A stretch of DNA of 64,000 bases. Origin: Dichotomocladium elegans (lineage: Eukaryota > Mucoromycota > Mucoromycetes > Mucorales > Lichtheimiaceae). The position numbers and the translations under genes are program-made. The stretch spans positions 1,054,001 through 1,118,000 of the forward strand of contig JAIXMN010000006.1 of the NCBI GenBank assembly GCA_025716815.1. The letters run 5' to 3'. The notes under the pieces were generated by a model. It had not been told where the DNA came from and searched no databases. It saw only the letters and a program-made list of their open reading frames with translations. Positions 1 through 64,000 of the stretch are shown piece by piece; positions within the stretch are counted from its first letter, which is position 1; every line of letters begins with the position of its first letter.

Positions 1-1205
1 GATGAAAGGGCTTATAGGGTGAATTTACACCTCGCATCGATCGATTGAAATCTTTACGCACGGAGAAAATGACAAAACTTTATGTCGACTTGCATTGTAT
101 TCGAATCTTTGTGGATTGACCACTTGCACCCGTACTTATAATCATTTTTTTGCCGAGGAGTCGCTGCTGTTGCTTTCGTCTACTCCGAATCCCATTGTGC
201 CCCTGTCATTGCTTCTGACGTTTGCCTGTCGTTGCCCCTGGCGCACCACTATCCTCTCCGCCATGGTTATGGCCATGTGCTAATCAGGGTACGCGTGGTG
301 TGATCCGGGGCGGGGGGGGGTGTTAAGTCAAGAGGCAAAAGGGGAGGGGTGCGTTAATTACTAGCGAACTCCTTTTATCTCTTGATACGATCATTGCGTA
401 TGCGACATCCTACTCTTGCTTTCCATGACCTTTGCTCCGGGTACGATCGATCAATCTAGCACGAGCGACGGATATCAGGCATTATTTTAAGTCCAATGTC
501 GGATAAGATGCACGAAAAGATGGGAACTTTGTGTATATACATAAAAAATCGTTCGATTCCATTCAAATTCGACACGTATACGCATTTATGATTGCAGCGC
601 ACATGGATCATACGCCTGACTATCGCAACATGCATTGTATATAATGTAGGACAGTGGACAGATTCTCGCAAACACATTCTAAAACGACTCTTCATTGACA
701 CTAACGCATGGCTTCTTAAAAATGGTTTTATATAGGTTTCTTTTCACACTATATCATTGCGCTGAACAACATGTAGTCCTATCTGCTTTGCTGCGACGGT
801 TAAGCCCGAGGCATTCCCAAACATCATCGCATATGCTATACGTATGTAGTTGCGCTTCAATGCCGTTTTCTGCATTCAAATGACTGTACGTATCCTTTCC
901 GCTCATGTCAGGCTTACCCATGCAGAACAGCTTCTGGTTTGGGAACAAACAGATGGAAAAGAATATATTTTCTCGACAACAACAGTCTGCATAGGTTCAG
1001 GAGCATTCGTGCTCTGTCAAATACATGATACTGTCTATTGTAGTATATATGTAATGAAACCAACCGCGCGTGTCAGAATGTTGAACATGTATGGATGGAT
1101 GGAAAAGGGGCTGCTTTCTTGTGTGTGTGTGACACCTTTCTCGCGTGTGTGCCAGCATTTTTCTAAACTTGTCATCATAATCCAAGAGGCTTCTAGCCCG
1201 AAACA
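1..1205. other. No supported gene
   Basis: Only short overlapping open frames without recognisable domains or start context are present. The region is AT-rich, with a G run near 308-319 and a GT microsatellite near 1121-1132. It lies downstream of the minus-strand regulator and is probably intergenic. Confidence 0.5.
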
Positions 1206-6116: not shown

Positions 6117-6639
6117 TAACGTACTATTTCTATTGTCTCTCCAGCGCGTAATAAAACTTTGTTGCTCGTTGTGCAGGAAGATACTGATGCCTGTATGAAG
6201 CTGTAAACGCGGTATAACGCTTCTCATCGAACCTCACTGAGATGGAAACTCTGCGATGGCCTTTGACAAGCACCAGTCATACATTGAGAAAGCGCCTTGA
6301 TTCAGCGCATTATGGCAGAGTTAGCCTTACGTATCACACCTGGTGCATTTTCCGTATGTATGAGAGGAGCAGATAATAACCTGTGCTTCTAGCGGCAAAC
6401 TTTCTTTCGCAGATCCTGAACTACACAGTCCAGGCAGCAATAGGTTTATAAATGTGGTTTGGTAGCATAGCTAGAGCCAGCTGATGAAGGTGTCACCGAC
6501 TAGGAACCATGGAGGTTGCTCCTAAAGTAGAGTGCTTTGAATTTCGCAAGGGAGGAAAACAAAATGTCGCACAAAATTTATCAACGTCGCATAAAAAATT
6601 AAATTTGTCGCATGGATAAGGCCGAGACAAACCCGTTAG

Positions 6640-6720
6640 TCAACAGAAAATATCTAGCCCTTTCTTACTCTTCAACTTACCCCGAAGGTAGCTAAGTGTA
6701 CCATTGCGGTAACAATTGCG
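6640..6720 (-). ncRNA. Remnant of the putative omega-RNA right end (E1)
   Basis: Minus-strand sequence keeps a short hairpin with a UUCG-type loop (TACC TTCGG GGTA, 6678-6690), a weaker four-pair stem around TTACCG (6703-6716), and the CTGTT-GACT-AACGG hairpin near 6643. These correspond in order to hairpins in the copies at 45.3 and 52.95 kb. Expression is unknown. Confidence 0.4.
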
Positions 6721-6779
6721 GAAGAGGGACGACGACGAACCAACGACGACACCACTTGCAGAAGCAATGGAGGAAGCAA

Positions 6780-6880
6780 ACAAAGACAAAAGCAGCTCGA
6801 CGAAGCCATGGTGGGAGACCTGCGTGTGTGCGGCCAAACCACGGTTCCACCCAAAGCCCATATCCTCACCTCGAAGCATT
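6780..6880 (-). pseudogene. Fanzor C-terminal remnant (RuvC-III region)
   Basis: On the minus strand, around 6830-6849, codons give WNRGLAA, matching WNRDLAA of the intact Fanzor at 43.1-45.3 kb; the catalytic Asp is replaced by Gly. It sits between transposase remnant and right end, in the same order as in the copy at 50.7-53.2 kb. Short and degenerate, so the call rests on position as much as on similarity. Confidence 0.5.
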
Positions 6881-6954
6881 GAGTTAGGCTGATATCGTTA
6901 TCTACAGAGGATCCGGAATGTAAGAAGACTACTGAAGAAAACAAGTCGGCGTTG

Positions 6955-7510
6955 TAGAATAACTTATTGCCTTTTACTTTGCTCTTGACAACTGACCAGA
7001 CTGCTCGGTTGGATTGAGTTCAGGCGAGTAAGGTAGGAGATAAGGACATTGATACCCTGAGCATTATGCATAGGTGCATTATCCATTACCAAATAATGGC
7101 CCCTCATACGTCCGTACTTATCCATCTCGTCCATCGTAGCCTTAAGGAAGCTGAAACAATGTCCAATTACTGCTCCTCTGCTCGCAACTTCAGATTGACC
7201 TGTCCTCTTTCTTGATTGGGGGCTGTGGGAGTCTCAAGCTACATTTAATGATGCCTGACGCTGAGCTTGTTCCCAAGGTTATGATTGTTTTTGCTCTTGC
7301 CTTTGGCATTGTGACCACTCCAGAAGTCCCTTTCTTGGACCATGCCATTCTGCGGTTCATAATAATATGAAATCCAGACTCGACAAGGAAAACGCAGTTT
7401 TTCTAAAGTCAATGTCGGTCCTGTCCCATCTGCGCACCCAGTCAAGGTATCCTTGGATCTTCACAGCACTATTCCTGACTACAGGCTGGAACCGTGCCAT
7501 TTTCAATGGA
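6955..7510 (-). pseudogene. Tc1/mariner-type transposase, C-terminal half, broken
   Basis: Minus-strand frames give NCVF..ESGFHI, WSKKGT, SASGIIKCSLRLPQPPIKK and YLLPYSPELNP, the DDE-domain landmarks shared with the copy at 51.3-52.6 kb. Frames are interrupted by stops and shifts. The transposase would cut and paste the element at TA dinucleotides. The N-terminal helix-turn-helix half is missing because the copy is truncated at 7523. Confidence 0.85.
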
Positions 7511-7523
7511 AAGTTGCATTCAT

Positions 7524-10500
7524 TGCGTGTATTCCTCTATACCATATGTCGTTCTGAAGAAGAGCATACTGCACAAGATGACGCCTCTGAATATACGGCT
7601 GAAGGTAGTGAGCCGGTGGATTATATTGCTCGGCAAACATTGCTGCTGTAAATGAAGACGTTGCGCCTGTTTTCTTTCCGGACTGTCGAAAATGTGCCTG
7701 CGAATACTGCGCATGCTAAGATGTGATATCTGAATGTATCACTGACTGGAGTTTGTCCATCCCAAGCTTTTCTTTGTACCGCTCTCATGGGAAGATTCGC
7801 TTGTCCCTTTCCCCCTCCCCCGTTCCGCCATCGAGCCACAAGTGACAAACAGTGATTCAGCGTCCCAGGACTTCTGTACCGACGTTCATGCGTACAATAA
7901 CGTGTTTGCATTGCCTCAAGTCACACAAACTATAATCGGGTTTTGGTCAACGGTACCAACAGCGAGTCAACATTCCGTATGTAAATGGCACTTGGCACAA
8001 AGAACCATGCTGCTTTCTGGTTTTAATAAATATTTCATGGGTGGGTAGGGGAAAGATGGAGAGAACCCCATCTGGTATCCTTAGCGTGGTTACACATGAA
8101 GCTGCTACCCCGTCTGTTGAAAGCGTCGTACGCAGATGGGACGGCTGCGCCGCATAACTTTGTCATTCCCGCTTATGCGCATTGCCTTCTTCAGATAATC
8201 TCCCTTAATCCAGCTTCACTATGTCCATTGTACCCTCATGATGGTCATGGATGGTGTAGGAGTAATGTGTCAATAATGAGATGATCGTAGTATATATCCA
8301 TGAAACGTGTTCCCATCATTACGGTCGACTTTACCAGCAGTCCGTAGTCGACAGCTATGCATGAATCAAAAATTCTCGCCTCCATTCCCTCGCCACACAT
8401 CAAGAGGGTTGACTTTCGGAAATATACAGTGGTGTCCCACGATGTCGTCCATCTACACCAAGTTGGTCGGGCCGTTCTCTTACCTTCGTCGTTCCGCCCG
8501 CGAACCAATTGTATGAAGCAGATGGCAAAAGCCTGCATTGCCATTGTTCACCACAGGGGGGATCTTCCACGCTGATTTATCGCATTTACTCGCAACCGCA
8601 AAGGACCCGGGGCTGTTGCCGAACTTCTTGGACAAAAAGGCCTATGATTGACCGGATATTTGTTCACAGGTCTTTCAAGTGACCCCAAGATCGTTGGTTC
8701 GAGTCGAAGGGTATAGAATCCATATTTTTCAAAGGCCTTCTGTCAACTTTTTCTATATTCCTATATGCACGTGTCTAGTAGAGACTGACGGGAGATTCCC
8801 AGCAGACAGGCTGTTGGTGATGAAGCAGAGAGGCTCATCAGCCGATGAACAAACAATCACATTGGAAAAGTAGACATGAAACAGGAGAGTTCCCGCCTAC
8901 TCGAAATGGGCTTTTCTGTGTAACCATTCGTATTTTTTATCACATGCCATCTTCGTGGGCCCCGACCACGGGGCAGCTAGTCAAAAAATGGTTTTCTCTA
9001 CAGACTGCATTGCTCTTTGGCTGCATACCTTTTTTTTGAAAGGGTTTAGAAACGGCGTGAGAAACGGCGTTAGGAGCACTAGGGGGCTTTGCGGACTAGG
9101 CAGTGTTTACTTTTTGCTTCTGTATCGAGGCTAAAGTAGTGAAGACGTCATGCAGCTCGCCATTGGTTTATATTTTCACCAATGGGAAAATTGAACAGTT
9201 TCGTATAAAATCTCGTCTCGCCCCCTCAACTCATGTTCCCTTTGGTCCCTGGCATGGGGGCCTAGAACCCTGCCCGTCGCTACTCGGAAGACGTTAAGTC
9301 CCGGTTGGTCTTCGAGATAGACCCGTCCGCGAGGGTCGTACCGCGTTGCGGGCACTTGCGCCGGCTAGCCCAACCGGACTTGGGTCGTTACGATGGAATG
9401 TGTTGATGCTCCGGCCTCTCAACTGCCACCGTAACGCGCTTGTGTCGGCAGGTAAAATACTCCTTGGCCTAGAGTTGCAGACAGTGGGTGATCACAGAGA
9501 TGACTTGTCATTTCACTGATCTCTCCAGTCCTGTGGCTCTCTGGGAAGGTATGTCCAGGTGATCGAAGATGGGGAGAGACATTTAGACTGGAATGACTAA
9601 CATGGAAACTTGATGAACCAAGGTCATGTCCGTGTGGTGAGTAGGCCGCCACGTACCCTGTTTCTACGGGCAGGTCTTGTAAGAGCCGGGCAAAGGCCGC
9701 AGCCTTCTTTGTCATCCACCTCGATTGAAAAGCCCTGGGGTGGACGCTTCCGAGGCTTTAAAGAAGTGAATCGCACTTTCCCCAGAGTGCCAAGCAGGGG
9801 TGTCTGGATTTGGTTGTGTGTTTCGCCAATTCAGATCCACAAATGCGTGGCTTCCCGCTTTTTTTTGAATAGGTGCTTGCGATCAGCAGCGACAGCAGTA
9901 ATCCGGATAGCCTGATCGACCGATTTTCCCTGCTACACTTGGCAAGTAGAAATGCTGTTATATGTGTATTGACTTGGTCTCGCTGTTAACATCAGTTTGT
10001 TCTGTCCAAATCTTAGTCGAGGCTATCTTCCATGGAACCTGGAGCCGTCCTGTCGATCCCACTGGATCGAGCGTAGCTCTGCTTTGTCCATCCATGGAAT
10101 CCAAGCATGGTTTTAGGTAAACGATCAACGCAGCATCAAAAATTGCATATATAACTTATCTTCATTCCGCAGGATATAGGCGATTTGGCAAAGTGGCAGC
10201 CGTTGACCTCGTTTGGCACATATAAGACGTGCTTGTAAAATACTAAGGTATGGGCAGTATTGTTAAACTTGCCTAGCAAGAAGTAGCCGACAAGACCAGT
10301 TAACTAACGCTTATTAAAAGACACACTGCGCTTATCCGTAATGGAGGACCTGGATCGATTCATATGTCATCTGCAAGGGATCCAGGTCGGTAAACCGATG
10401 AATCACTTTGCATAGATGTCAACGCTAATACACCCGCACTCTTAGCAATTAGTAAGATGCCAGTATGGAAGCGGAGGATTTCCTCCATCGTCTTATAGCC

Positions 10501-19049: not shown

Positions 19050-20235
19050 GAAACAGCGTTTCTTTTCTTCCTTTCTTCCATTAGACCTCACATACACTCC
19101 TATTGTATATTGAAGCACTGAAAGTAATGCGTTATTTTTCTTTGTGTGTTGATAAGGCTCGAAATACCATCTCTATTATTGGTATCATCCGGCAAGTCAT
19201 TTCGAAAGAGCTTATATCATTTCCAATCACGCCACCAGTGCGTAGTGTTTGCGTTTCAATAGATCTAATGTATGTGTGTAATAAACCGAGACGCTTGCTG
19301 TGCAACGATGAGCATATGGGTGAAACGAGAATGTTTGTTGTCTCATCAAGCATATGCTACGAATGGCTCCCGCCTGACGTTATCAGTGGAGGATAGCCTT
19401 TGCCTGTAGGGTGTGGCCATTTCAGCTTGAAGGAACAAGAGTTCCATCGATGTCCAAATGGCAACAACTGGGATTTTCTTTCGTTACTTGCTATCTTGCG
19501 TGTGTTTCATAGTTGCTGAAAGGAGAAGATGATGATCTGATATACGTGGATTCCACATACGGACATAGGCCTTGATGATGCAAAAGGACTGCTTATGTAT
19601 ACGCCGCTTGTTGCCAATGGTGGACTACTGCTATGGTATAAATGGGTCACTATTGGCGTGAAAGATCCATCTCCACTTGTGATGACCCGACACCCTGACC
19701 CGGCGATTGTTTCTATCAAAACGGCATCCATAACGGCGTTGTTACTGCAACGAAAACCGCCCTCGCTGTTGACAATGGTGCGTGATACGTAGTCTTATAC
19801 AAAGAAGATATTAGTGATTTCATATCCCCGCGTACAAAATCGGGTTCGGAATCAGCGGAGGAATGGGTGCATGATGATCAGGAATGACCAACTCCAATTG
19901 GATCTCTGTGTAACCAAAATTATCAGACTCGATCTTTGAATGGGCTTATCGAATACTGCAAGCAGTTTCTGGCGTTGGAGGCTATTACTCTCCCTGGCCA
20001 GGCGCAACGTATCGAGATACATGCTAGGGAGTTACATCTCTCCATGAAATGTTCGACTCGTGTACAGTACTCTGCTCTAGGCGCGCGCAGACGTGTAATA
20101 GATATATATATCGCAGTCTGATTTTGCGATCGTTTGGTGTCCGACCTAAACCCCATCGCCGTTCAAGCTCGGCCCTCCCCCCACCCACTTCTTTTTTATT
20201 TTTCCTTTCTTTTGTTTCGCTCCAGTCCCATTGAC
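19050..20235. other. Intergenic, nothing recognised
   Basis: Open frames overlap on both strands without domain signals. The last ~80 bases are pyrimidine-rich and probably form the 5' leader of the kinase gene. Confidence 0.4.
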
Positions 20236-38268: not shown

Positions 38269-41200
38269 CTAGGGAAGTGGAAGAAGTAGCAGAGACTTCA
38301 ACCGTGCGAGGATCTCTCTCGAGAGAGAAAGCAAGGGCCAACTGTGCCACCAGTGGTCTAGCCCCTCTAACACAACTGGACAAGTCCAGAAGAGGTGTTC
38401 AAGTGTTTCTTCAGCACGGCCACATAAACAGGCACGCTGTTCAGGAAGAAGTGATTGAAGGCGGTGCGCCGTCAAGGAGGAGCCTCTTGAAGTTCCCAAA
38501 TGAAAAGGCGCACTGAATTGGCTATTGGAAGACGCCAAACCACACACCATGGATGCACAAAAGCACGTGGATGGTGAGGAGCGAGGTTTTGCGGTAGGTT
38601 AGGGTAACTTGGGAGCAAGGCCAAGTTACTTTGAACCATAGGACGGTATGCCATATAAGGGGAAGTAACACTTCCCCAATCTAAAGGTTTGCCGTTGACA
38701 ATCGAAACGGCTGTGGCCACCGAAGTGGAACGGCAAGGCCAGAATAGAGATTGCCTCGTTTGCAATGAAACATCGCGTGTTAAAACACGGATGAACATCG
38801 TTTTTGTGGGCGCAGAACACTTTGCGAAGGCGTCTGGGCGCCAGTTCCCCTCAGGGAAAATAATCTCAGACCAGTAAACTGGTAAGGAGGCAATGATCCC
38901 TAGTCGTATGGTGGACCAGACCCGGCTAGGGCCAAATGCAGTAAGATGGGTATACCACAGAGGGTAATCCCAGTTCAAAGCTACCAAGGTGAACTTGCTA
39001 AATTGGGGACCTGCACTAGAAACCCAATCAACATGTGTACGGATCCAGAATTGTGGCCAGCAATTTTGCATGGAGCGTAGTCCTGTGGCTGTCTGCAGCC
39101 ACAGATCCACCAGATAATTCTGGATGGAGGCCCAAGGGATGCCCTTTCCCTTACTAACCTGAAGTTTCCAAAGATACATAAATATCTGAACCCAGCGAAC
39201 ATCCAGGTTAAGGCGAAACGATCGCATTTCACGAAGACGAATGGCCCTGATCATGATAGAAAGACGGTGGAAACCCAGACCACCCTCTTGGATAGGCAAT
39301 CCAAGAATATCTTGTGCCGCTTTGCTACGTCCGTCATTCCAGATTAGCTTGGCTAAAAGGGATTCGATCGAATGCAGCTTGCTGGAGCTGATATAAAGAT
39401 ATCGAGCTAAAAAGAGAGCCTTGGGGAGCACCAAGGTTCTGAGAGCCATGATTCTGCCTTTCACAGATAGTGTAGAAAGGTGGAGCGCCTTTGTAGATGC
39501 AACAAGTTTTCTCAGGGTGGGTGCCCAGGTAGATTCAAAATCTAACTCGCAGCCAACAGGGACACCTATTCGCCATCTAGGTGTACGTTGACCAGCAGGT
39601 TCTGGAAGCTCAGATGGTTTAAGTCCGACATCGCCGGTTGAGAGGACTTCTGTTTTGGCTGTATTGAAGCGGGCACCACTGGCCTGGCAATACAAGTCCA
39701 GTGTTGCAGAGAGAGGGACTGGAAAGCTGCCCAAGAGGGCATGCAAATCACAGTGTCACCAGCAAACATAGTATACTTCATCTTGGGTGCAGTAGGCAAA
39801 GTTAGCCTAATGGTGGCATTATCTTCAAGCAAGGCCTGGAGGCATGCCATCACACAGATGAAAAGAACACAGGAAAGAGGGTCTCCCTATCGAACACCTC
39901 TTTTAACCTGAAATTTGGCACAGGCTTGGCCATTCACAAGAAAAGTCGACTGGGCCTTACGATATAGACCACGGAGAGAGCGCAAAACTCCCTTGGGAAT
40001 CCCAAACACTTTAAGCGTGCGACACAGAAAGCCGTGATTTACGCGATCATAGCTTTTACTTGGTCCAAAAACAGGCAGATGCCTGGACTATCTGTTGCCT
40101 TCAGATAGTGTAATGTCATCTGGACATCACGGATACTAGTTCCAATGTCGTGTCCAGGCAAGAAAGCTGTCTGGCTAGGACGAATTCGGTCAAGAATAGC
40201 AGGTGCTAAGCGAAGTGCAAGCAGTTTGCTGTAGATCTCATAGTCCCACATTAAGTAGCGAAATAGGACGATAATTTTGCAACAGGGTTGGGTCTCCTTT
40301 CTTGAAGAGTAGGAGCGCCATACTTTCTAGGAAGCTTGGGGGTGGGCAGGACCCAGCCAGGAGTTTGTTGTAGACCTCAGTCAACAACGGAATTACCTGG
40401 TCGGCGGTAGCTTTATAGAATTCAATCCCTAGACCGTCAGGTCCAGGTGCTTTACCATTTTTGAGGGAGAAGATGCTACGATGCACCTCTTCCTCGGTAA
40501 TCGGTTTGTCTAAGTGAGTCAAGGAGTTTCGGGGACCCCCGCAGACGTAGGTCATGATCTAGAGCAGAGAGAACCATCGAACTCGCCCTAGGGTCAGTAG
40601 GTTCAGTTTTGTACAGAGAACTGTAAAACGATTGAACCAAGGTGGGTATTGAGGAAGTTTCCATGGAATCGTATGACTGGGAAAGATCAGATGATGCACG
40701 TAACGCCTCTATTATAGTGGGAGGAGGGGATTTGTGCACCTTATTCAAGGTATAAGGATTAAATTGATCTCCCAACCGTCGCCATCTGTCAAAATTCGTC
40801 AATCGAGCAGCATTACCTAAGGAGTCATAGGCCGAGGCCAATTCCTCCAAGGTAGCTGCTGTATCAAGGCCTTTTGCCTTAGCCTTGTTGCATCTATTGA
40901 GCAAGGTTTTGATGCGAGTGTTGAGCCTACACGCTCGTTTTCTTTGGGCCACTTCAAGTGTGGAACGCAAACCTGGCAGGTATATACGGTCTATCCTGCT
41001 TTGGTGATTATGGCTGCTGCTCACATAGGTAAAACCAGGATCGCGATTGCGTCGCAACCTAAGCCATGCATCTTGGCCATATGTCACCTCAAGTAAGGAA
41101 ACAAGTTCCTTAGCTCCAGGTTCTGATGAAAGAGTGGTTTGTGTTGAGCGATCACGAGGATCCAGAACACACTTAAAATCCCCTACTACTATCACAGAGG

Positions 41201-41630
41201 GATCGTCCAGTGTTTTCAAACATTGGGTGATGGTCGTAAAATAAGCTCGCTTAAGCGAGTTTTGGTTCGGTGCACGGGTCAGGAGCAACCGAAATTCAAT
41301 ATTATTAAGTATTTTCAAGAGGAGGGCTGTCGAAGGTAAACCTTCTAGGGGCACCACCTCAAAAGAAAACTGTTCACACAACGCTTTTTGGACAAGTAGG
41401 CCAAGCTCCTTAGAGTTGGAACCTGGCATGGCCAAACAATAACCTTGCCATTGGTGGTTACAGTGGTTAAAGGCTGACCACTGAATACCATCCAGATGGC
41501 TTTCACAAAGGAGCACAAAAGGCAGGCGATGTGTCGCCAATATAGGTAGCAGAGTCCGTAACTTGGCTCGGCTTGCTGAGTGCGAGAGACCTCGCATGTT
41601 CAGAAAACAGACATGACTTTTGGAAGACAT
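38269..41630 (-). pseudogene. LINE ORF2: endonuclease and reverse transcriptase, broken
   Basis: Begins at MSSKSHVCFLNMRGL (ATG 41630-41628). An APE-type endonuclease comes first (LLCESHLDG, VVGDFKCVLDPRDR, SRIDRIYL). The reverse transcriptase follows, with KNGKAPGPDGLGIEFYK, NYRPISLLN and SQTAFLPGHDI. The usual FADD catalytic box appears as FAGDTVIC, losing an Asp. A C-terminal knuckle CLCGRAEETLEHLFWTC is near 38400. Frame changes occur near 40550, 40240 and 40050-39850. On the minus strand the frame is open into the neighbouring transposon end, but that N-terminal part is not LINE sequence. Confidence 0.9.
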
Positions 41631-41642
41631 AAAAAATTGATG

Positions 41643-41644
41643 TA
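41643..41644. repeat. TA target duplication, left side of E2
   Basis: The TA at 41643-41644 pairs with TA at 45544-45545 and flanks TACACTC...AAAGTA. The duplicated TA is the target of Tc1/mariner-type integration. Confidence 0.75.
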
Positions 41645-41837
41645 TACACTCTTTTTCAAAATCAAAGTCGCACCGTGCCAGTTCTGAAGTCGCAGGATCG
41701 CAAAAATACAAATCGCAATTTTGTCCGGAAATCTTTACGCGTGATGACAAAGCAAATGTCGCATACATACACGGAAAGATGTCGCAAATCCATCTCATCC
41801 TTATGACTCTTTCTCTTTATAAACTTTTACATTCTGA

Positions 41838-42290
41838 AATGAGCAATCTATTATTTTACAACGATGGTCAAGGTCATGTGGTTGATGAGTGTGGCTGACC
41901 TGAATCTACGGACTATGTCATTGATGAGGAAATGTACTCACTTCAATCCGTTTGTTCTTACACTGAGTATCTGCGTAGCATATCGTGCAAAGATAACTCT
42001 GAGTTTACTGCCGCGCACATACCCAAACGAAAGGATCCAGACATTCGGATGAAAGAAGCGGGGTCAAGCGCAGTAACATAGCATACACTGATTAAGGCGA
42101 GGTCAGATTTTTCAAACGGATGTTCGAGAAGATCTTGAGTGCATCAGCTGCAGCAAAACTGCTAGGAATCCATGTTCGTTCAGCACAGCGATGGGCATTA
42201 CAGTAAGAAAAGAACCCTGACAGCATTTTAAGGAACGTAGAAGCAGAGGGCCGATCGTGTATTCTCAATGAAGACCATTAGAAAGTTACA
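41838..42290 (+). pseudogene. Truncated Tc1/mariner-type transposase (E2)
   Basis: Corresponds to the N-terminal part of the transposase in the copies at 51.3 and 63.3 kb, including the DNA-binding region (LLGIHVRSAQRWAL). It has stops and ends near 42290; the DDE catalytic region is absent. Confidence 0.8.
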
Positions 42291-42759
42291 ATACATTTAT
42301 TGCTCTAGAATCCAATTGTCGCTTAAAATAGCCGTACTCAAAAGAATCCTATATCGAAAAGAGTAAGTTTATTGGAAAGAACAAAGAACTATCGGAGTGT
42401 GCTTGTCTCTTTGTCAATGAGCCTTTCAGCTAGGAGAGTGTAGCTCCGAAGCTGGTTATCAAACAGAATAATGAAGTAATGGCTTTCAGGAGACCACTAT
42501 GAAATTTAATGTTTTCATTGTAATATTCAGAGAAATTATTCATAATGTACCTACACTTCCTGAACGTATGGATAAGGATGACAGCAGTGTCGTGTTTCGC
42601 AGTGTTGTAAGAGACTGAGAGAGTACGAAAAGAAGTACAATCTTCCTACACTACACAAGTGCCGGATATGTATCGGATTATTCTTGAGATGGTCTCTTGG
42701 AATTACTTGTTGGAATTGTTTGGGATTTCATTGTTGATTTCAGACCGCCCTCACGTCGA

Positions 42760-42846
42760 TACAGTGGCCGCCCGTTATAGTGATACCCTCCTTCCAGGAA
42801 ATCGCATCACTATAATGAATTATCACTATAACGAGCGGCCACTGTA
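42760..42846. mobile_element. Small pogo-like MITE
   Basis: An 83-bp element (42762-42844) with ~24-bp inverted ends starting CAGTGGCCGC and ending GCGGCCACTG, differing at one position, flanked by TA on both sides. CAGTGG ends and TA duplication fit pogo/Tc1-type non-autonomous elements. It lies upstream of the Fanzor start, nested inside E2. Confidence 0.8.
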
Positions 42847-43089
42847 AAACCTCATTAAAGAACCCAGTGGGAGAAGGAAAAACACTGTGGAGATGGATCA
42901 TTGCTGACACTATTAATAGTGATGCTCAAGCAAACTGGCCCTTTCCATTATCCACATACAAAACAAGAGCCCATACAGCCTACAGAAAATAACACAGCAC
43001 CACATTTAAGGTTGAAAGGTAATACGGCCGCTTTCATACTCGGCTCTGCGATACTAAGAAATAATATACCCTAGGTCTTCACCCACCAA

Positions 43090-45263
43090 ATGGCCCAACC
43101 CCACCGCCCCGTCATTCCCGAAGGCATGCGCACTGGCCGTATAATTGGGGTGAAATCGTCCATGCGGGGCATCGGCTGGCGACAGCAGTACCGTGAAGGT
43201 CTGTATCAGTTGGTTGACCTTGTCCATAGCACCACAGCGCAGGCGTACGCGTTCGCCAAATATATTTTCATCAACGAGACAGCGCGCGATCCAACTTTTA
43301 ACATCCAGGAAAACATCACGGAGAAGTTCTTTTCAGAAGTTTGGCTCTCCATGGTTAACAAAGCCGAACGCCGCACCCAAGGTGAAACTGCCCGCATCCG
43401 AGAACTGATTAATCGCCACAAGGATGAGTACCTTCGGATATCCGGATACGACAGACCTGCGTTCCCTTATTCCCAGCAATGTTCTTCTTACAAAGGCACC
43501 AAGATTTATACTGCTTACGTGAATAATGTCCACATGCGGTTCGGGCAACACCTTCGGGGTGTCATCAATGTCATCCTGAATCTTCGTCAGCGAAAAGCCG
43601 ACCGCAAGCGGGAGTTAATCGCACAGGGCCTAAGCCCCGATCAAGTACGCCAGGACCTTTATGAAACCGTCACCCGGCATGCCATAGGATTCAAGCTAGC
43701 AATTCCCCGTCGAGGTGTTTTGAGGGAAGACATTAATGCCGAACCTGGATTTCTTCGGGAAGCATACGATATCCTACAGCCTGTCTTAAACGCTTACCCC
43801 CGAAACCACCAATTCCAACACCAGAGTATCTATTACGACGCCAAGGCCAATCCTGTTAAGCATTTCAACGCCTTCTTCCAGCTTGCACGTGTTTGTCAAC
43901 AGAACGGAATACGCGGATTCAACTGTTTTCCACTTCGTCGCTCGTGGTCACCATGCTATATGGAGATCGATACGAAAATCCTTTGCTACCATATCCTGGG
44001 CTGCAAAATGGAATCCCACACAAGCAATATGGAGTACTGGAGACGGGTTGTAAACCTGAAATCAAGAGCTTTCAAACCCCAAGAATCCGAGCTGCTTCAA
44101 TTCCGTGGGACTATTCACACTGATGGCGTTGGTGTTACTGTGTTCAACAAGACAAATGGCCTTCAATCGGGTTTCGGACAGAGATTTGGCATCCAGAGCG
44201 AAGATATCGAGTACGTCACCCCACAGATAGTCCGGAACGAAGACTATAGAGAACAATGGGTCACCATTGATCCTGGCAGAAGGGACCTGTTGTATTGCGT
44301 TCATGAGAACTCGTCACCCGACAACCACCAGACCTTCCGATATACAAAGCATCTTCAAGATCATACACGGAAGACCAAACGGTACCCCAGACTCCGAGAA
44401 CGACTCAAGTTAGAGCGACCCGAGGTCGCGTTGGCTGAGCAGAATCTATCTCAATTTCAAAGTCATACGCTTTCCGTGCCCAACTACGACGGATACCTCG
44501 CCGCCAAGAACCGGGTCTCTGTAGTTCTCAAGTCTTTCTACGCGACAACCACTACGAACCACCCGAACCCGCAATTTCTTTTTCGAAAACTTCGCCTATC
44601 AGCGTTTTACAAGAAGCAGCAAGCAGATGAAAAGCTTCTCGACTCTTTGAATGCGAAGTTTGGCAGTAGGTCCATTTTCGTGATGGGAAATTGGTCTGCG
44701 CCGCATACCAGATATCACAAGCCTATCCGTGGTGTCGGCTTCCGGCGGCTGTTGAAGAAGAACAATTGCAATATTTATTTGATCGACGAGTACAAGACAA
44801 GCAGGTGCTGCCCTGTATGTAGCAATGAAAGCCTTGCTACCTTTAAAATGGTTCCTAATCCACGCCTATATCGACGACCCGACAATCCGCTCACGATCTG
44901 CCATGGCCTGCTACGGTATGAAGGACGGGCATGTTGTGTTATCTTTCCAAAAGATTTTAATATTTCGATGTTTTCAATAGATGCACAAATCAAAACTGTA
45001 CAGCAGGCATGGCAGAGGGTATTCGTCAACCAAGGTTATGGAACCGGGATCTGGCGGCGGCTCTCAACATGCATCATATCCTCCGGGGTCTTCTGGAAGA
45101 TGGTATCATCCCAGCAAGGTTTCAGAGAAGAAGTGCTGCACAAGCGTCCGCAGCTGGTGGAAGGCCACACTCACCTGAACCAGAGCAGCGCAGCGTGAGA
45201 CCGCGACGGGCAAGGCCAGGAAGGCCACGAGGTGCACGCTCTAGCGGGTCGAGACGACCGTAA
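43090..45263 (+). CDS. Fanzor RNA-guided nuclease (eukaryotic TnpB), 2 exons
   Basis: Homologue of TnpB/Fanzor, programmable DNA nucleases guided by an omega-RNA made from the transposon right end. Exons 43090-44915 and 44981-45263 give 702 residues; the 65-nt GT-AG intron is required to reach the last catalytic block. RuvC-I is TIDPGRRDLLYCV (Asp ~394). RuvC-II is YLIDEYKTSRCCPVC (Glu ~567). The Zn ribbon pairs CPVC with CTNQNC, created across the splice. RuvC-III is LWNRDLAAALNM (Asp ~632). The N-terminal ~390 residues would be the WED/REC-like part. The C-terminal ~45 residues are Arg/Pro/Gly-rich and could act as a nuclear or RNA-binding tail. With no stop or frameshift and all three acids kept, it could be active. 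The transposon carrier favours Fanzor1 over viral-type Fanzor2. Confidence 0.93.
44916..44980 (+). other. Fanzor intron inside the Zn ribbon
   Basis: GTATGA donor and TTTTCAATAG acceptor. Splicing converts CTACG|A into Leu-Arg and restores CTNQNC and the RuvC-III block; unspliced reading runs on in a wrong frame to 45198. The copy at 50.7-53.2 kb has a GTATGA...TTATAG intron at the same codon position (about 52701-52739). Confidence 0.85.
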
Positions 45264-45430
45264 GCCCGACCTAGAATTTTCCGTGTCAGTTATCGCTGAC
45301 GCACCCAGGATAACCACGGCCCTTCGGGGCAAGCCCCCTTCCTTTGGAAGGACGGTGTGTTGTAAGTTAACGGGATTGGAGAGGGCATAGTGTTTTCTGC
45401 TGACTAACAGGGTTTAATCCATGGATGCGA
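45264..45430 (+). ncRNA. Putative omega-RNA / structured right end of E2
   Basis: Directly after the Fanzor stop lie four hairpins: GTGTCAG-TTATCG-CTGACGC (45283-45302, with one T-G pair), GCCC-TTCG-GGGC (45319-45330), CCTTCC-TTT-GGAAGG (45337-45351), and CTGCT-GACT-AACAG (45397-45410, one mismatch). Order and loops recur in the copy at 52.95 kb, and more weakly at 6.65-6.72 kb. In TnpB and Fanzor systems the guide RNA scaffold comes from this position, reaching to the transposon end at 45543 with the guide read from the flanking DNA. Transcription and exact ends are inferred. Confidence 0.6.
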
Positions 45431-45543
45431 AATCTTTTTACCTATTGATACGACAAATTTATATAATTCTATGCGACATTTTTCTTGTATTTTGCACGAC
45501 ATTATTTATCTTGTTTACGACATTTATTTTTGAAAATAAAGTA
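45425..45543 (+). repeat. Right terminal region with GTCG-type subterminal repeats
   Basis: Contains TGCGAAATC, TACGACAAAT, TGCGACATT, CACGACATT and TACGACATT before the TIR. The same array, almost base for base, is found at 53070-53194. Mirror-image GTCGCA motifs occur in the left end (41669-41790). These are likely transposase-binding sites. Confidence 0.75.
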
Positions 45544-45627
45544 TATTGATTACTTTACAAAAAATAAAAAATACAGCAAAAAATAATTTAAATTTCTTCT
45601 AAATGACTAGGGCGCCAGAGGAAGCCC

Positions 45628-46725
45628 TTACTGAGAAGAATGCAGCTCAGTCTTAGCTGCATCCTCTTGGTCCGTGTTTGATGGGTTGGTGGACGGGGGC
45701 GAACAACGCTCTTTCTTGGCCTTCTTTTCCTTGGCCCGCGCCAAAACACCTCTAGATGACGAGGTGCCCGCTGAACGGGCACGTTTCTTCTTGGCCGAAT
45801 CGATGACGGCGGCCACTTCTTCACTTCCACTGGAATCATCCAGGACGAATCCTCCGAAGACAAGGGGAAGTCGGTTTCCATAGGCGCTGAATCGGTCGCC
45901 AACTCAAGGTCGCTTACGCCACTAGTAAGGGCGTCCAGATCGTCGACGGGCGGGAGTCCAAACAGTTTTTGAGGGCACTTTTGAATGACCTTGGCGACGA
46001 CAACGGAAACAAGCATCCCTAGGTAGGGTGCGGCACTTTGACATACCCCAATCAGCAACAATGGTGACAGAGGATGGGAGGTCCTTTAACCCCTCACGGA
46101 GTTTGATGTTCACGTCCCACTTGTCCGATCGGATTCCTGTTACAACAATAACATTGGAAACCGAAACGACATCCCCATAGGCCTTCAAAGATCGCACAAG
46201 ATGCGTCTTATCACAGCCAAGGAGGCAATTAGTCAGGCGAAACTTGCGACCCCCACGACGACAGGGATCCCACCTATCTTCAAAGACAAGTGAGAAGCCA
46301 TCCACTAGGAATGGCTCGCGAAGAATCGCTACTTTGACGCCTCGAGAGGCAAGGCAAAGCCTAAGAAAAGACGGCTGCAATTTGTAGTCCGTAACTGATT
46401 GCGGGCAACCCGAAGGCCGAGCACGCACTAACTTCAACACCCTGAATAATTGCGACTGGGTGAGAGGGCGAGTTAACTTTGCTTCCACCGCATGGTGTTT
46501 GCGCAGAAAAGTCGCCGTTAGGTTTTGCGAATGACCTGCTTCAGCAACTTTAGCATAATTAGAGCGAACTTCAGCAGGAGGATCCGCCTGGGGACTTAAT
46601 GGTTTAGACACAGAAGTGTCAACCGCCATCGCGTCCGCATTGTTGTGCGATTGTGTTTTTTGAAAAGATACACCTCCTTTACCTGATTTTTTTGTGTGTT
46701 TGGGTCGGCGGTTAGTTCGATTCAA
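45628..46725 (-). pseudogene. LINE ORF1, gag-like, frameshifted
   Basis: Starts MNRTNRRPKHTKKSGKG at 46725 and has a long basic, Ser/Ala-rich N-terminus, then an RNA-binding-like middle (SQLFRVLKLVRARP, VDGFSLVFEDRWDP). A CCHC knuckle begins CFRCRRQGHSK near 45995 but its last Cys (KCPQKLFG) is in another frame. A second shift near 45830 is needed to reach the Lys-rich tail (AKKKRARSAG) and the stop at 45628. ORF1 proteins bind LINE RNA. It was once contiguous with ORF2; E2 now lies between them. Confidence 0.8.
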
Positions 46726-47057
46726 AGTGGGGCCGCACCCACAAAGAATCTAGTCTGTGAGACAGCACAGAGACTATGCCATTTGTTAGGGGGGGAAGCG
46801 CCCCCGAGCAGTGGCATGCCTAAAAAGGCCTGCTCGTTCCCTTCCAAAAATTCAGCCGCCTTCTAAACAAAGGCGCGATAATGCATCAGGCTCGTGCAGT
46901 GGCAGTATAATGGCTGGGCGCACCAATACCAGTTCTTACCACACACACTACCAACATATTTGAGTTGGCTTGGTAGGCCAAAGGCAAATAATAGCCACAA
47001 CCCCTTGGGGAAGTGTTACGCCCGTGAACCACGTCGAGGTTTTTGCCCACTCATGGG
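46726..47057 (-). other. LINE 5' untranslated region
   Basis: Non-coding sequence between the 5' target duplication and ORF1 start, with G/C-rich inverted patches. No promoter motif could be assigned. Confidence 0.5.
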
Positions 47058-50175: not shown

Positions 50176-50775
50176 GTGAAAGGATTTTGTAAAAGAAAAG
50201 AAAAAGGCAGGTAGACACGTCCTTTTAAGCTCAAGATGCGGATGGGTAATGCTTCCGCTATGAGTCAAACAAGCCCAGGATATTCCCCCCCCGGGGGAGA
50301 GAGAGGTGGGGGAGAGGAAAGCGGGTCTGTGCATCCATGTCGTCACTCTTTTGCTTTGTCAAGGAACGAATGGTTGGGAAGGGGCAAGGCTGCTACTCGA
50401 TGCCCAAGCATTGTCATTTCCCAATGGCCTTATATTCGTGTGAAGCAAACCTGTCTATCTGCCTATGGACGTAGCTCATTCGAGTGATCTATGCTTCTTC
50501 ACCGCCACGAGCCTTTGGGAGGGAGAGGTGAGGCAAGAACCTGCGAGCTGGTTTATCATCTTTCCTATTTTGGATGGTGAACAATGTCAGGTGCAAGTTG
50601 AACTGTCATTGGTTACAAGCGTAATAATGATGGACAAATAAGCTGTGTGTATGTGTGTGCGTGTATCTATTATACACTCTTTTTCAAAATCAAAAGTCGC
50701 ACTCTGCCAGCTCTGAAGTCGCAGGATCGCAAAAATACAAATCGCATTTTGCCCACGCGTGGTGACAAATCGAAT

Positions 50776-51251
50776 TGTCGTAGTCATATTAGCCGGGTAT
50801 TCCAACTACCGACCAACTTCCGTTTTGGGACTATTCCTGACGTAATGTTCGGCCTACTTCTTCTTTTGATACCTCGCCCGACATGGATCATTACATACGA
50901 AGATTACTTCTTTAGACACATCGTCCGGACAGAGGACGATATATTTTATGTATATTTTTAGTATTAGAAAACAATATAAATAAGGGGAAACTTATCTAAC
51001 AATAAAGAGGAACGAACCGTTTCCCTGGTCTACTCTCTTCGTGGTTATCCTTCGTGGTCTATACTCTCTTCGTGGCTATCCTTCGTGGTCTATACTCTCT
51101 TCGTGGCTATCCTTCGTGGTCTATACTCTCTTCGTGGTTATCCTTCGTGGTCTATACTCTCTTCGTGATTATCTTTTGTGGACTCTATCCTATCTGTGGT
51201 TACTCTTCGTGGTCGTCGTCTTTCCGTATTCAAGTAAAAACAAAGACGACA
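50776..51251 (+). mobile_element. Solo LTR inserted in E3
   Basis: 476 bp starting TGTCGT and ending ACGACA, flanked by GAAT on both sides (50772-50775, 51252-51255). The empty site is seen in the copy at 63180 (AAATCGAATGTCACAC). It has a TATAAATA box (50975-50982) and an AATAAA signal (about 51000-51005), as expected of an LTR. No internal retrotransposon region remains. Strand follows the promoter signals. Confidence 0.75.
51030..51200. repeat. ~31-bp tandem repeat within the solo LTR
   Basis: Units of the type CTCTTCGTGG-TATCCTTCGTGGTCTATA repeat four to five times, with decay toward the right. Because the unit lacks early stops in two frames, it produces long spurious frames. Confidence 0.9.
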
Positions 51252-51327
51252 GAATATCACACACATACACGGAAAGATGTCGCACAAAGAAAAAGCTTTC
51301 TCTTTTATACATTTTTCCATTCTGGAA

Positions 51328-52560
51328 ATGGGCAACCTAATTTTCTACCAAGATGGCCAAAGTCATGTCGTTGATGAGCGTGGCTGTCTTGAACCTATGG
51401 ACTATGCCATTGATGAGGAAATGTACTCACTTCAATCCGTTTGTTCTCACACTAAATATCTGCGTAGCATATTGTGCAAAGATAACCCTGAGCTTACTCC
51501 TACACACATTCCCCAGCGAAAGGATACAGACATTCGGATGAAAGAAGCTGGGATCAAGCGCAGTTACATAGCATAAACTGACCAAGGCAAGGTCAGATTT
51601 TTCAAACGGATATTTGAGAAGATCTTGAGTGCGTCAGCTGCTAGGTCTCCATATTCGTTCAGCCCAGCGATGGGCATTACAGTACAAGAAGGGCCCTGAC
51701 AGCATCTTAAGAAACCTAACACGGGGGGGGACCGTTCGCGTATTATCAATGAAGAGCATAAGCGCACTGTTTTAGAATGCGTTGATGAAGACCCATCCAT
51801 TGTTCTAGAGTAGCTGCTCCAACGATTTGAGGGTCTCAAAGCATCTAAACGACGCTCCATCGATGTATGAAAAGGTATGCAACTTGTCATTAAAAATGGT
51901 TCGGTTTCAGCCTATAGACAGGAATAATGCTGCGAAGATCCAAGAGCGCCTTGACTGAGTATGCAGATGGGATAGGACCGACATCGACTTCAAAAACTGC
52001 GTTTTTTCTTTGATGAGTCTGGATTCCATATTAATATGAAATGCAGCATGGTGTGGTCCAAGAAAGGGACCCCTGCAGTGGTTACAATACCACAGACAAC
52101 CGCAATCGTGGGAGCAATCTCAGCATCAGGCATCATTCAATGTAGCTTGAGACTCCCGCAGCCACCAATCAAGAAAAGAAGAGGGCAGGTCAATCTGAAG
52201 TTGCGAGCACAGGAACTGCAACTGAACATCATCTCAGCTTCCTTAAGGCAACAATGGACGAGATGGATAAGTATGAACATATGAAGGGCCATTAGTTGGT
52301 AATGGATAATGCACCTATCCATACGACTCAGGATATTTCTGAATACATCGAGTCTCGGGGATATCGATATGCTTATCTTCTACCATACTCGCCTGAACTC
52401 AATTCTATTGAGCAGTTTTGGTCAGCGGTCAAGGGCAAAGTTAAATGCATAGGTTCTTGGAAGGCGAGACGTTGATAACACAGATCAGCGAGGCATCTAA
52501 CAGCTTAAAGCTGAGCGATATCGAAGGTTTCGTTTCTCATTCTCATATGTGCTTAGTTAA
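51328..52560 (+). pseudogene. Tc1/mariner-type transposase, nearly full length, broken
   Basis: Broken frames give the N-terminal region (MGNLIFYQDGQ..VDERG), a helix-turn-helix segment (equivalent of LLGLHIRSAQRWAL), then FDESGFHINMKCSMVWSKKG near 52010 (first catalytic Asp), MDNAPIHT near 52300 (second) and YLLPYSPELNSIEQFW near 52380-52425 (Glu, the third acid). Several stops and shifts interrupt it, so it is inactive. It is the best copy in the window for the family's transposase. Confidence 0.88.
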
Positions 52561-52632
52561 ATGGCGCTGTATCTACTGCAGCATTGTTTATCACAAAGAA
52601 ATTTCTTCTGCTCCTCCTTGATTTCCTATAAA

Positions 52633-52830
52633 TAATGGACAGCCGAGAAATCTCCTTTCTCCATCAACTTCATCCCGACCCTCTCTTCCATGGTCTTATC
52701 CGGTATGATTATTGCAACTAACATCCACTGTCCTTTATAGATTAACCAATCGTACCCGTGCTTGATGAGCCATGGAAGAGAGGAGTTCCTGAACACCCTT
52801 CCGCTCCTTCCGCTCTTTTTCGCTGCCATC
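52633..52830 (+). pseudogene. Fanzor 3' remnant with conserved intron
   Basis: The sequence DPLFHGLIR, then GTATGA...TTATAG, then LTNRTRA lines up with NPLTICHGLLR, the GTATGA...CAATAG intron and CTNQNCTAG of the intact Fanzor. A stop follows, and the RuvC-III block is lost. The location between transposase and right end matches E1 and E2. Confidence 0.7.
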
Positions 52831-52929
52831 ACAGGCCCCATTTCGCTCCTTCCCTCCGCCGCCGCCGCCGCCGCCGCCGCCATTCCCTCGTTTGGCGCCC
52901 TGGCAGCAGCCGCCTGTCCCTTCTGGTGT

Positions 52930-53065
52930 GCTGGCTCTCTCCTCCTGTCTCTCCGTCCCGGTTATCGCCGGGACTACCCAGGATAACTCCTGGGTCCTTG
53001 GGGGCCCTTGAGTGTAAGTTAAAGCGTATGGAGGAGCATTGTTTTTCTGTTGACTAACAGGTTTA
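52930..53065 (+). ncRNA. Putative omega-RNA right end of E3
   Basis: Hairpins GTCCCGG-TTATCG-CCGGGAC (52955-52974), ACCCAGG-ATAACT-CCTGGGT (52976-52995) and CTGTT-GACT-AACAG (53047-53060), all with perfect stems. The first keeps the loop of its E2 equivalent while the stem sequence differs on both sides. Confidence 0.55.
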
Positions 53066-53376
53066 AATCCATGGATGCGAAATCTTTTTGCCTATTGATA
53101 CGACAAATTTATATAATTCAATGCGACATTTTTTTTGTATTTTGCACGACATTGTTTAATCTTGTTTACGACATTTATTTTTGAAAATAAAGTATGTTCA
53201 ACATGTTCGATTTCGAAAAAGATCAGTTGTACAGTGATGTTGCGGATACAAAAGTTTGCGTGTGTGTGTGTATATAAACATTTACAGAGATCGGAGAACG
53301 GAGAGAGGAGAAGGGTTGGAAAAGGGGAGGGGAACGGTTCGGGAAGAAGAGGGCAGAGCGAGGAAGGATTCTTGTT

Positions 53377-62917: not shown

Positions 62918-63177
62918 GGAAGGGCATCCCCGAAAGAAAAGAAAGGTGCCAGACAAGAAAGTTCAGAGACTCGATAAAATAAAGCTGTTGATGCTACACA
63001 GACTCCGAAACAAACCTCAGTTGCTCACCTTTGGGTGTATGTGTGTGCCGCTTGTCATGCAGGCATAGTGCATTTGTCTTCTTCCCAACCTAGCCGTTCA
63101 AGTGTCTCCAACGTAACATGTCTATCAACTGCCTGCTGCCCGAATGGATGATCTCCGTTACCCTGAAGAGAAACAAA
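62918..63177. other. Short promoter region before E4
   Basis: Upstream of the fasciclin gene, with no other feature visible. The transposon E4 begins ~260 bases from the fasciclin start and may sit in its promoter. Confidence 0.4.
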
Positions 63178-63179
63178 TA

Positions 63180-64000
63180 TACATTCTTTTTCAAAATCAA
63201 AGTCGCACTCTGCCAGTTCTGAAGTCGCAGGATTGCAAAAACACAAATCGAATGTCACACACATACACGGAAAGATGTCGCACAAAGAAAAAGCTTTCTC
63301 TTTTATACATTTTTCCATTCTGAAATGGACAACCTAATTTTCTACCAAGATGGCCAAGGTCATGTCGTTGATGAGCGTGGCTGTTTTGAACCTATGGACT
63401 ATGCCATTGATGAGGAAAATGTACTCACTTCAATCCGTTTGTTCTCACACTGAATATCTGCGTAGCATTTTGTGCAAAGATAACCCTGAGCTTACTCCCA
63501 CAAACATTCCCCAGCGAAAGGATACAGACATTCGGATGAAAGAAGCTGGGATCAAGCGCAGTTACACAGCATAAACTGACCAAGGCAAGGTCGGATTTTT
63601 CAAACGGATATTTGAGAAGATCTTGAGTGCGTCAGCTGCTAGGTCTCCATATTCGTTCAGCCCAGCGATGGGCATTACAGTACAAGAAGGGCCCTGACAG
63701 CATCTTTAAGAAACCTAACACGGGGGACCGTTCGCGTGTTCTCAATGAAGAGCATAAGCGCACTGTTTTAGAATGCGTTGATGAAGACCCATCCATTGCC
63801 CTAGAGTAGCTGCTCCAATGACTTGAGGGTCTCAGAGCATCTAAAACGACGCTCCATCGATTTATGAAAAGGTATGCAACTTGTCATAAAAAATGGTTCG
63901 GTTTCAGCCTATAGACAGGAATAATGCTGCGAAGATCCAAGAGCGTCTTGACTGAGTATGCAGATGGGATAGGACCGACAACGACTTCAAAAACTGCGTT
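63180..64000 (+). mobile_element. E4: TIR transposon, cut by the window end
   Basis: Begins TACATTCTTTTTCAAAATC after TA (63178-63179) and follows E3 closely without the solo LTR. It carries the transposase N-terminal and helix-turn-helix regions with stops and a frameshift near 63419. The catalytic part, any Fanzor and the right end lie outside the window. Confidence 0.88.
63327..64000 (+). pseudogene. Tc1/mariner-type transposase, N-terminal part (E4)
   Basis: Contains DNLIFYQDGQGHVVDERG, a shift near 63419, IPQRKDTDIRMKEAGIKRSY, then the helix-turn-helix LLGLHIRSAQRWALQYKKG near 63640-63700 and VLNEEHKRTVLECVDEDPSI. Stops interrupt it. The copy may be completed outside the window. Confidence 0.8.

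Follow-up and report, generated by a model that had tools for sequence, protein, structure and literature searches.

The Fanzor gene and its family

The window, by which we mean the whole stretch of 64,000 nucleotides that was analyzed, carries a gene for a predicted RNA-guided nuclease of the Fanzor1 type within a transposable element of about 3.9 kb, and it holds related elements elsewhere (Table 1). The gene runs from an ATG at 43090 to a stop codon at 45261-45263, and its spliced product is 702 amino acids long, with the three RuvC acids D394, E567 and D632 and a complete C4 zinc ribbon (C574, C577, C610 and C615). The first-pass annotation, a reading of the letters alone, had given the coordinates, the 65-nt intron and the three acids exactly to the base, as we confirmed by checking the frame and the splice-site pairs. 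It was also right that the zinc ribbon is complete after splicing and that no stop or frameshift interrupts the frame once the intron is removed.

Table 1. Features of the Fanzor-bearing element and of related elements in the window.
Feature	Position	Strand	Basis and remarks
Whole Fanzor-bearing element	41643..45541	+	Limits of the similarity shared by 30 loci; left end TATACACTC.., right end ..AAAG, then TA
Tc1/mariner transposase, decayed N-terminal part	41738..42320	+	tblastn pieces, 47-79% identity to the 475-aa frame of L050
Palindromic insert, CAGTGGCCGC..GCGGCCACTG	42761..42846	.	Sequence; pattern of gaps and overlaps against other loci
Fanzor1 exon 1	43090..44915	+	REC, WED, RuvC-I D394, E567, C574/C577
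Fanzor1 intron	44916..44980	+	GT..AG, 65 nt
Fanzor1 exon 2	44981..45263	+	C610/C615, RuvC-III D632, Arg-rich tail, stop
SL1-like hairpin, GUGUCAG-UUAUCG-CUGACGC	45283..45302	+	Candidate 5' stem of the omega RNA
UUCG hairpin, GCCC-UUCG-GGGC	45319..45330	+	Candidate SL2, weak: register not kept in subfamily B
Terminal palindrome UUUAUUUUUGAAAAUAAAG at the right end	45523..45541	+	TA next; the predicted guide would begin past the TA
T1, sister element	50671..53196	+	Like ends, decayed transposase, perfect SL1 at 52955-52974, no Fanzor detected
T2, transposase fragment with SL1-like module (6662-6732)	6636..7536	-	No Fanzor detected

Among eight listed GT..AG pairs that hold RuvC-III in frame, the pair bounding 44916-44980 is the only one that restores the second zinc knuckle, CTNQNC. 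The unspliced frame of the window copy is still open, by coincidence also for 702 amino acids, but it loses RuvC-III, and reading through the intron in the 17 other uninterrupted copies of the family runs into a stop at codon 634-636. In an alignment of 28 of 30 loci (L019 and L025 omitted) the position of the intron is identical, its lengths of 64, 65 or 69 nt represent all three phases, and the spliced frame is open through RuvC-III to the C terminus in 18 of the 28 copies, a share that is biased upwards, like the absence of exon indels, by the picking of copies as best hits. Because the lengths span three phases while the exons keep their frame in these 18, we take the intron to be real, and the aligned copies provide good comparative evidence for its splicing. 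The borders are GT-AG in 16 of the 18 uninterrupted copies, with an AT donor in L008 and a GC donor in L020, and a third subfamily has a 56-nt intron at the same codon.

A search of the genome with exon 1 yielded at least 81 matches, 69 of them with an identity of at least 80% and 12 in the range of 47-70%; like those of the transposase search below, these matches are pieces, several to a copy, and do not imply copy numbers. We distinguish group A, to which the window copy belongs, group B (L031 and its kin, 53-55% identity), group C (L033, 50%) and the P0030 type (L034, 47%). P0030, a database protein of Dichotomocladium elegans, matches C29:958630-960086 of the window's genome piecewise at 93-98%, and this genome is very probably that of the same species (Mucorales, Lichtheimiaceae). 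In exon 1 the best sibling copies share 96-97% identity with the window copy.

Identity as a Fanzor1 nuclease

On sequence, the gene is a Fanzor1 with the whole catalytic set, and nuclease activity is predicted. Searched against the PDB with phmmer, the protein matched PpFz1 (E 2.5e-123) and SpuFz1 (E 5.2e-52) and nothing else at E <= 0.01. All three of its acids are in register with those of SpuFz1 (PDB 8gkh; PMC10432273): D394, E567 and D632 align with D383, E541 and D606, named as the catalytic residues in PMC11423790, which lie at positions 777, 935 and 1000 of the construct chain, and the spacings of 158 and 65 are reproduced. A predicted structure of exon 1 alone (608 amino acids, without RuvC-III; pLDDT 78.8, pTM 0.76) matched the folds of PpFz1 (E 2.9e-39), SpuFz1 (E 5.0e-27, about 24% identity over the fold alignment) and GtFz1 (E 2.1e-15), and all seven PDB chains below E 0.001 were Fanzor1. 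The host of PpFz1, Parasitella parasitica, also belongs to the Mucorales. PpFz1 (PDB 9cf0-9cf3; PMC11423790) is the best match of the window protein in both sequence and fold, but is described there as carrying a cyclophilin-binding FRI insertion of about 100 amino acids in RuvC, which the window protein is without (chain residues 1002-1094 are unmatched).

These matches and the register of the acids bear out the first-pass call of a fungal Fanzor. That annotation had proposed a profile search and a structural superposition of the three acids. The phmmer search of the PDB matches Fanzor1 only, and the structural comparison covers the exon-1 fold; the register of the acids comes from the sequence alignment, RuvC-III lying outside the model.

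The protein also has the motif D-X(125,275)-[TS][TS]-X-X-C4 zinc finger-X(5,50)-RD that PMC3627910 gives for Fanzor1, in D394, T570 S571, C574 C577 C610 C615 and R631 D632. The TDG motif of the WED domain, a mark of Fanzor1 according to PMC10711439, is present as T344-D345-G346, with D345 invariant in a 25-row alignment; the RuvC-I DPG is D394-P395-G396, and the relocated glutamate of DE.KTS is found in D566-E567. The database holds 44 homologs, the best named ones from Syncephalis, Rhizopus and Mucor at 42-47% identity, and in an alignment that took in 24 of the 44, the proteins with a residue at the site conserve D394 in 20 of 22 cases and E567 in 22 of 23. A Pfam scan of the spliced protein returned no family at E <= 0.01; PF26935 is precomputed on most of the homologs, yet scanning the window protein, P0001 and P0004 against Pfam did not return it.

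The element, its ends and its host LINE

Similarity among the copies starts at about 41643 and stops at about 45541-45545. The right ends read AAAG|TA in 36 of 36 loci, and the left ends read TATA|CAC or TATA|TA in 26 of 28. The TA follows the terminal palindrome in all 36 loci found by searching L001-L041 with up to two edits, and the palindrome plus GTA occurs at 286 places in the genome with at most one mismatch, against 0 for the reversed pattern. The candidate terminal inverted repeat, about 30 nt and imperfect, has a local score of 33, which does not exceed that of every shuffle (200 shuffles gave a mean of 20 and a maximum of 36). If the element is taken to end in AAAGTA, 13 of the 36 copies would be without a TA duplication (the right flanks of L003, L005, L016, L017, L018, L023, L026-L030, L036 and L039); if it is taken to end in AAAG, it is the transposase-type left ends (CATA) that would be without one. 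A nested insertion, L032 inside a relative, fits more than one placement of the target-site duplication, and a genome search for an empty site with the joined flanks of the window copy matched only the window's own two halves. Within the right end, at 45440-45541, there are short repeats around CGACATT, whose number varies between copies.

The palindromic insert in the 5' part of the element, which we take to be a pogo-type MITE, has TA on both sides and is shorter than in the sister copies. An Rfam scan of 41500-45700 gave three matches, all below the gathering score, and both miRNA matches among them are this insert.

Upstream of the Fanzor gene lies the decayed start of a transposase. With the best-preserved version of this part as query, 187 matches were listed, those of the Fanzor copies included. 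L050 has an open transposase frame of 475 amino acids (DDE_3, E 1.8e-30) and L051 a nearly identical one, the stretches that hold them being 99.5% identical; a transposase of this kind is a possible partner of the Fanzor element in trans. The sister element T1 has a left end of the same type as the Fanzor element, a right end that is 88% identical over 187 nt, and a decayed transposase related to the DDE_3 frame of L050. Because the transposase-bearing T1 has the same type of ends, which we consider the decisive evidence, we classify the Fanzor element as a non-autonomous Tc1/mariner element with a decayed transposase. At C57:1658200-1666500 (L033 and L051), an open, spliced Fanzor frame of 722 amino acids from the third subfamily is convergent to the 475-amino-acid Tc1/mariner transposase frame. 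A further mariner relative, with a left end and transposase pieces, runs off the end of the window (63175-64000).

The Fanzor element has landed in a LINE, between its ORF1 (45588-46749, minus strand) and its ORF2 (approximately 38269-41645, minus strand), and the element is therefore flanked by dead frames on both sides. ORF2 matches Exo_endo_phos at E 3.1e-5, just under the curated cut-off, and its reverse transcriptase was recognized by eye. The LINE has five relatives at 52-57% identity, one with an open frame of 1162 amino acids (C78 of G000, 18396-19706).

A hairpin module past the stop codon

Between the gene and the right end of the transposon, 19 nt past the Fanzor stop, there is a hairpin of 7 bp with a UUAUCG loop, which we call SL1 as a candidate stem of the omega RNA. 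Groups A and B share the layout UUUUCC-[7 bp]-UUAUCG-[7 bp], with stems of GUGUCAG/CUGACGC in the window copy, GCGUCAG/CUGACGC in its siblings and GUGUCGG/CCGGCAC in B. Within A and B by themselves none of the seven pairs is broken, and two of the seven are changed on both sides. T1 has the stem GUCCCGG/CCGGGAC, and T2 has GCAAUUG/CAAUGGU with one mismatch. On ten rows (nine distinct) 98.4% of the cells are paired and five of the seven pairs are changed on both sides, in a set that leans towards structure because T1 and T2 were noticed through their hairpin; 500 shuffles never matched either the share of paired cells or the covariation score, and shifted structures fail. The comparison of A with B is free of that selection bias, and so is a genome-wide pattern with free positions. 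This pattern, TCCG-N5-GTTATCGC-N5-C, occurs exactly at 196 places in the genome, against one for its reverse, and 75 of the 100 places listed from these 196 pair at all five free positions. In 35 distinct hairpin sequences, 149 of 175 free cells are paired, compared with a mean of 112.4 and a maximum of 128 in 2000 shuffles.

At the level of folding, a minimum-energy structure of the 71-nt module forms SL1 in T1 and in B (L036), but not in the window copy or T2, and the 300-nt 3' stretch as one fold is no better than shuffles (z -0.14). SL1 was searched for in subfamily C (L033 and L051) and in L034, and was not found. The second hairpin is a weak candidate for SL2, since subfamily B does not maintain its pairing in register. 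Between SL1 and the right end, the sequence diverges as fast as the decayed 5' part of the element (0.0142 versus 0.0119 per site among L002-L017).

The module is not confined to Fanzor genes. SL1 lies 76-245 nt upstream of the right end in 44 of the 67 exact right ends on contigs C1-C39, and 21 of these are of the Fanzor A type. Neither T1 nor T2 has Fanzor similarity at E 1e-3 (tblastn, four Fanzor queries). A covariance model built from the SL1 rows picked out one more site in the window, 247-328 (plus strand, E 0.005), where neither Fanzor nor transposase was detected in the 1.7 kb upstream. We scored the neighbors of the 100 listed hairpins against 142 Fanzor and 141 transposase places. 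These lists come from truncated match lists and exclude some rows (second pieces of entered copies, and places on contigs that lie past the listed hairpins), which makes "no Fanzor listed" an upper bound. On this basis, a same-strand Fanzor lies within 4.5 kb of 29 of the 33 A-type hairpins (none listed for 4) and of two of the six B-type hairpins (none listed for 4). The 23 T-type hairpins have a Fanzor on the same strand once and on the opposite strand five times, with none listed for 17, and the 38 other hairpins once and three times, with none listed for 34.

Four of the 61 T-type and other places were read directly. L057 has a transposase, whose match stops about 100 nt before the hairpin module, then hairpin and right end, with no Fanzor in 2.8 kb; L058 has hairpin, right end and transposase scraps, again with no Fanzor in 2.8 kb. 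L056 has a transposase, a decayed Fanzor that runs the other way, and then SL1 and the right end, and it suggests that a guide module can be oriented away from the Fanzor gene. The fourth, L055 (C13:599576), was rejected as an SL1: it is without a right end, lies downstream of a frame of 554 amino acids resembling a GATA factor, and is probably a chance occurrence, the covariance model giving it E 8.3e-5 all the same.

A proposed retention cycle

We propose that the Fanzor1 gene is the cargo of a non-autonomous Tc1/mariner element in this mucoralean fungus, which would be mobilized by the transposase of relatives at other genomic sites. Transcription from the SL1 hairpin through the right end would yield the omega RNA, with the DNA adjoining the insertion as its guide. 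Fanzor and omega RNA would then cut the empty site, either the one left by excision or the one on the homologue, at a target motif ending in TA, and repair of the cut would copy the element back from the filled template. We infer this cycle of excision, guide RNA, cutting and re-copying, and we put the probability of the reading as a whole at about two in three. The anatomy fits a Fanzor1 RNA, in that SL1 past the stop is followed by the terminal palindrome, the TA and then unique flank. According to PMC10711439, the scaffold of Fanzor1 RNAs includes the TIR and the TSD and ends in a double-stranded stem, and in the three solved Fanzor1 RNAs SL1 has 7 bp (PMC11423790), a length that the window element has in common with PpFz1; unlike in PpFz1, SL1 of the window element sits about 260 nt from the right end. 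The target motif reported for SpuFz1, CATA, also ends in TA (PMC10432273). The proposed cycle may be compared with TnpB, which is reported to serve insertion sequences on plasmids as a gene drive (PMC11870625).

Several results speak against the cycle. SL1 is missing from the minimum-energy fold of the window's own module, the whole 3' stretch is no more stable than shuffles, divergence between SL1 and the right end is not slowed, the inverted repeat does not outscore all shuffles, the search for an empty site gave none, the placement of the target-site duplication is ambiguous, and just two of the six listed B-type hairpins have a Fanzor listed close by. The predicted guide in the right flank has a mismatch-free match in the genome only at its own place, with match totals of 31 + 29 against 32 + 34 for a control. 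Among the fetched flanks, from which matches to the window had been filtered out, we found no shared insertion sites beyond nesting in relatives and partial similarity, and no homing event is therefore visible.

The presence of the module on transposase-bearing relatives with no detectable Fanzor (T1, T2 and L057), and the fact that just 21 of the 44 right ends with SL1 are of the Fanzor A type, would be expected if hairpin and right end were a property common to these transposon ends and worked for the transposase, through binding or through the 3' end or stability of an RNA, with Fanzor as a passenger whose real RNA is encoded elsewhere. We hold this to be possible but the less likely explanation, as the seven pairs, the place past the stop and the terminal stem before TA are features of solved or sequenced Fanzor1 RNAs, and a DNA-level end would not obviously require compensatory changes around a constant loop.

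Selection on the family and probable decay of the window copy

Among the 18 uninterrupted copies, shared variants (those present in at least two copies) comprise 7 nonsynonymous and 19 synonymous changes (0.17 of the neutral ratio of 2.16), whereas singletons comprise 66 and 59 (0.52; Fisher p 0.018). The set of 30 aligned copies, which adds L025 and L038 to the 28, gives 29 nonsynonymous, 38 synonymous and 1 stop among shared variants (0.34 of a neutral 2.25) against 166, 101 and 5 among singletons (0.73; p 0.0057). Pairwise dN/dS is about 0.21 among the 17 uninterrupted copies other than the window copy, these pairs being non-independent, and among L002-L017, which were chosen as best hits, the exons diverge by 0.0063 per site and the decayed 5' part by 0.0119. 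The older, shared variants are depleted of amino-acid changes, and we therefore regard the family as constrained and the Fanzor protein as having mattered while the family spread. It is unlikely that the element is instead an inert passenger, with the frame conserved merely through the youth of its copies. Youth is compatible with the high identity of the best copies in exon 1 and with 10 of the 28 aligned copies being already broken, but the shared variants are far poorer in amino-acid changes than both the singletons and the neutral expectation.

The constraint seen in the family does not extend clearly to the window copy. Its terminal branch is 0.0196 (FastTree, 18 uninterrupted copies), similar to that of L020 (0.0195), and the other 16 range from 0.0005 to 0.0058. 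Its protein is seven amino acids shorter than those of the 17 other uninterrupted copies, a shortening that could have arisen by loss between direct repeats, which the comparison of copies showed, and it has 17 private amino-acid changes, 15 of them in exon 1. Near-invariant sites are hit by K353N (sibling residue in 23 of 23 homologs), G388E (20 of 23), R433P (19 of 21) and E544K (24 of 24). Four of the 15 exon-1 changes fall at sites that are at least 80% conserved, which is about the number expected from 152 such sites in 608 residues (counting positions with a residue in at least 15 homologs), and the private changes are thus spread regardless of conservation. The 30-copy set puts the private changes at 17 nonsynonymous against 4 synonymous; the 18-copy set has the same 17 but counts 11 synonymous ones, which is somewhat below neutral. 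There is no clear constraint on the window copy in these counts, the second of which leaves room for a weak one. Roughly 4% of neutral changes would be nonsense, so 21 private changes predict less than one stop, and the open frame is unsurprising.

The first-pass annotation had read the integrity of the frame amid dead elements as a sign of recent transposition or selection, and the complete catalytic site as marking a candidate for activity. The long branch, the deletion, the private changes and the open frame in 18 of 28 copies speak against the former, and given the branch and the private changes a complete site does not by itself support the latter. That the window copy is itself functional, kept by selection or by a recent jump, is very unlikely: its catalytic acids, zinc ribbon and splice sites are intact, no stop or frameshift is present and the 17-to-11 count is a little below neutral, but the 17-to-4 count, the four near-invariant sites, the lost residues and the long branch outweigh this. 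It is probably an older, drifting member of the family that has not yet met a stop, with at most reduced activity.

Relation to known elements and significance

The protein and its carriage on a transposase-less mariner element are already known in kind. PMC3627910 describes elements of the PUl-4 type which, like the one in the window, have Fanzor1 alone, mariner-type ends with TA, and the transposase elsewhere; the Mucorales Fanzor1 elements it describes are, unlike ours, MuDR-like with 9-bp duplications. The RNA hairpin and the Fanzor-less sisters are features of the window family, and none is described for those elements in the available part of that report. A Fanzor1 element of SfAV, as presented in PMC10711439, resembles our model in being non-autonomous, in carrying Fanzor1 only and in having an RNA that crosses the TIR and TSD into the flank, and differs in its viral host, its two copies and a transposon type given as unknown. 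What is new beyond these earlier observations is the hairpin module past the stop, which also occurs on transposase-bearing, Fanzor-less relatives. Among the titles and abstract beginnings listed from the open-licence literature, we found no report of a Fanzor from Dichotomocladium and none of Fanzor guide-RNA modules on Fanzor-less eukaryotic elements.

It may be that the hairpin is a guide-RNA module shared among elements and acting in trans. We tentatively raise, as a doubtful extension, that the guide RNA could be a transposon-end module uncoupled from the Fanzor gene, with about 200 copies serving in trans a Fanzor made by a minority of them; many of these modules would lie on Fanzor-less Tc1/mariner elements, and each would take its own flank as guide. 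Orphan omega RNAs occur in bacteria. If the extension were true, the trans modules would be their eukaryotic counterpart, and Fanzor would be a family-wide system of RNA-guided retention or drive for a whole clan of transposons.

The frame carries a signal of selection although the Fanzor element is unable to move itself, and its Fanzor-less sisters are ready-made candidates for trans-acting guide RNAs. With dozens of related copies in one genome, some interrupted and some open, some with the nuclease and some lacking it, and with similar ends and a recognizable RNA hairpin among them, the natural role of Fanzor in its transposon becomes testable.
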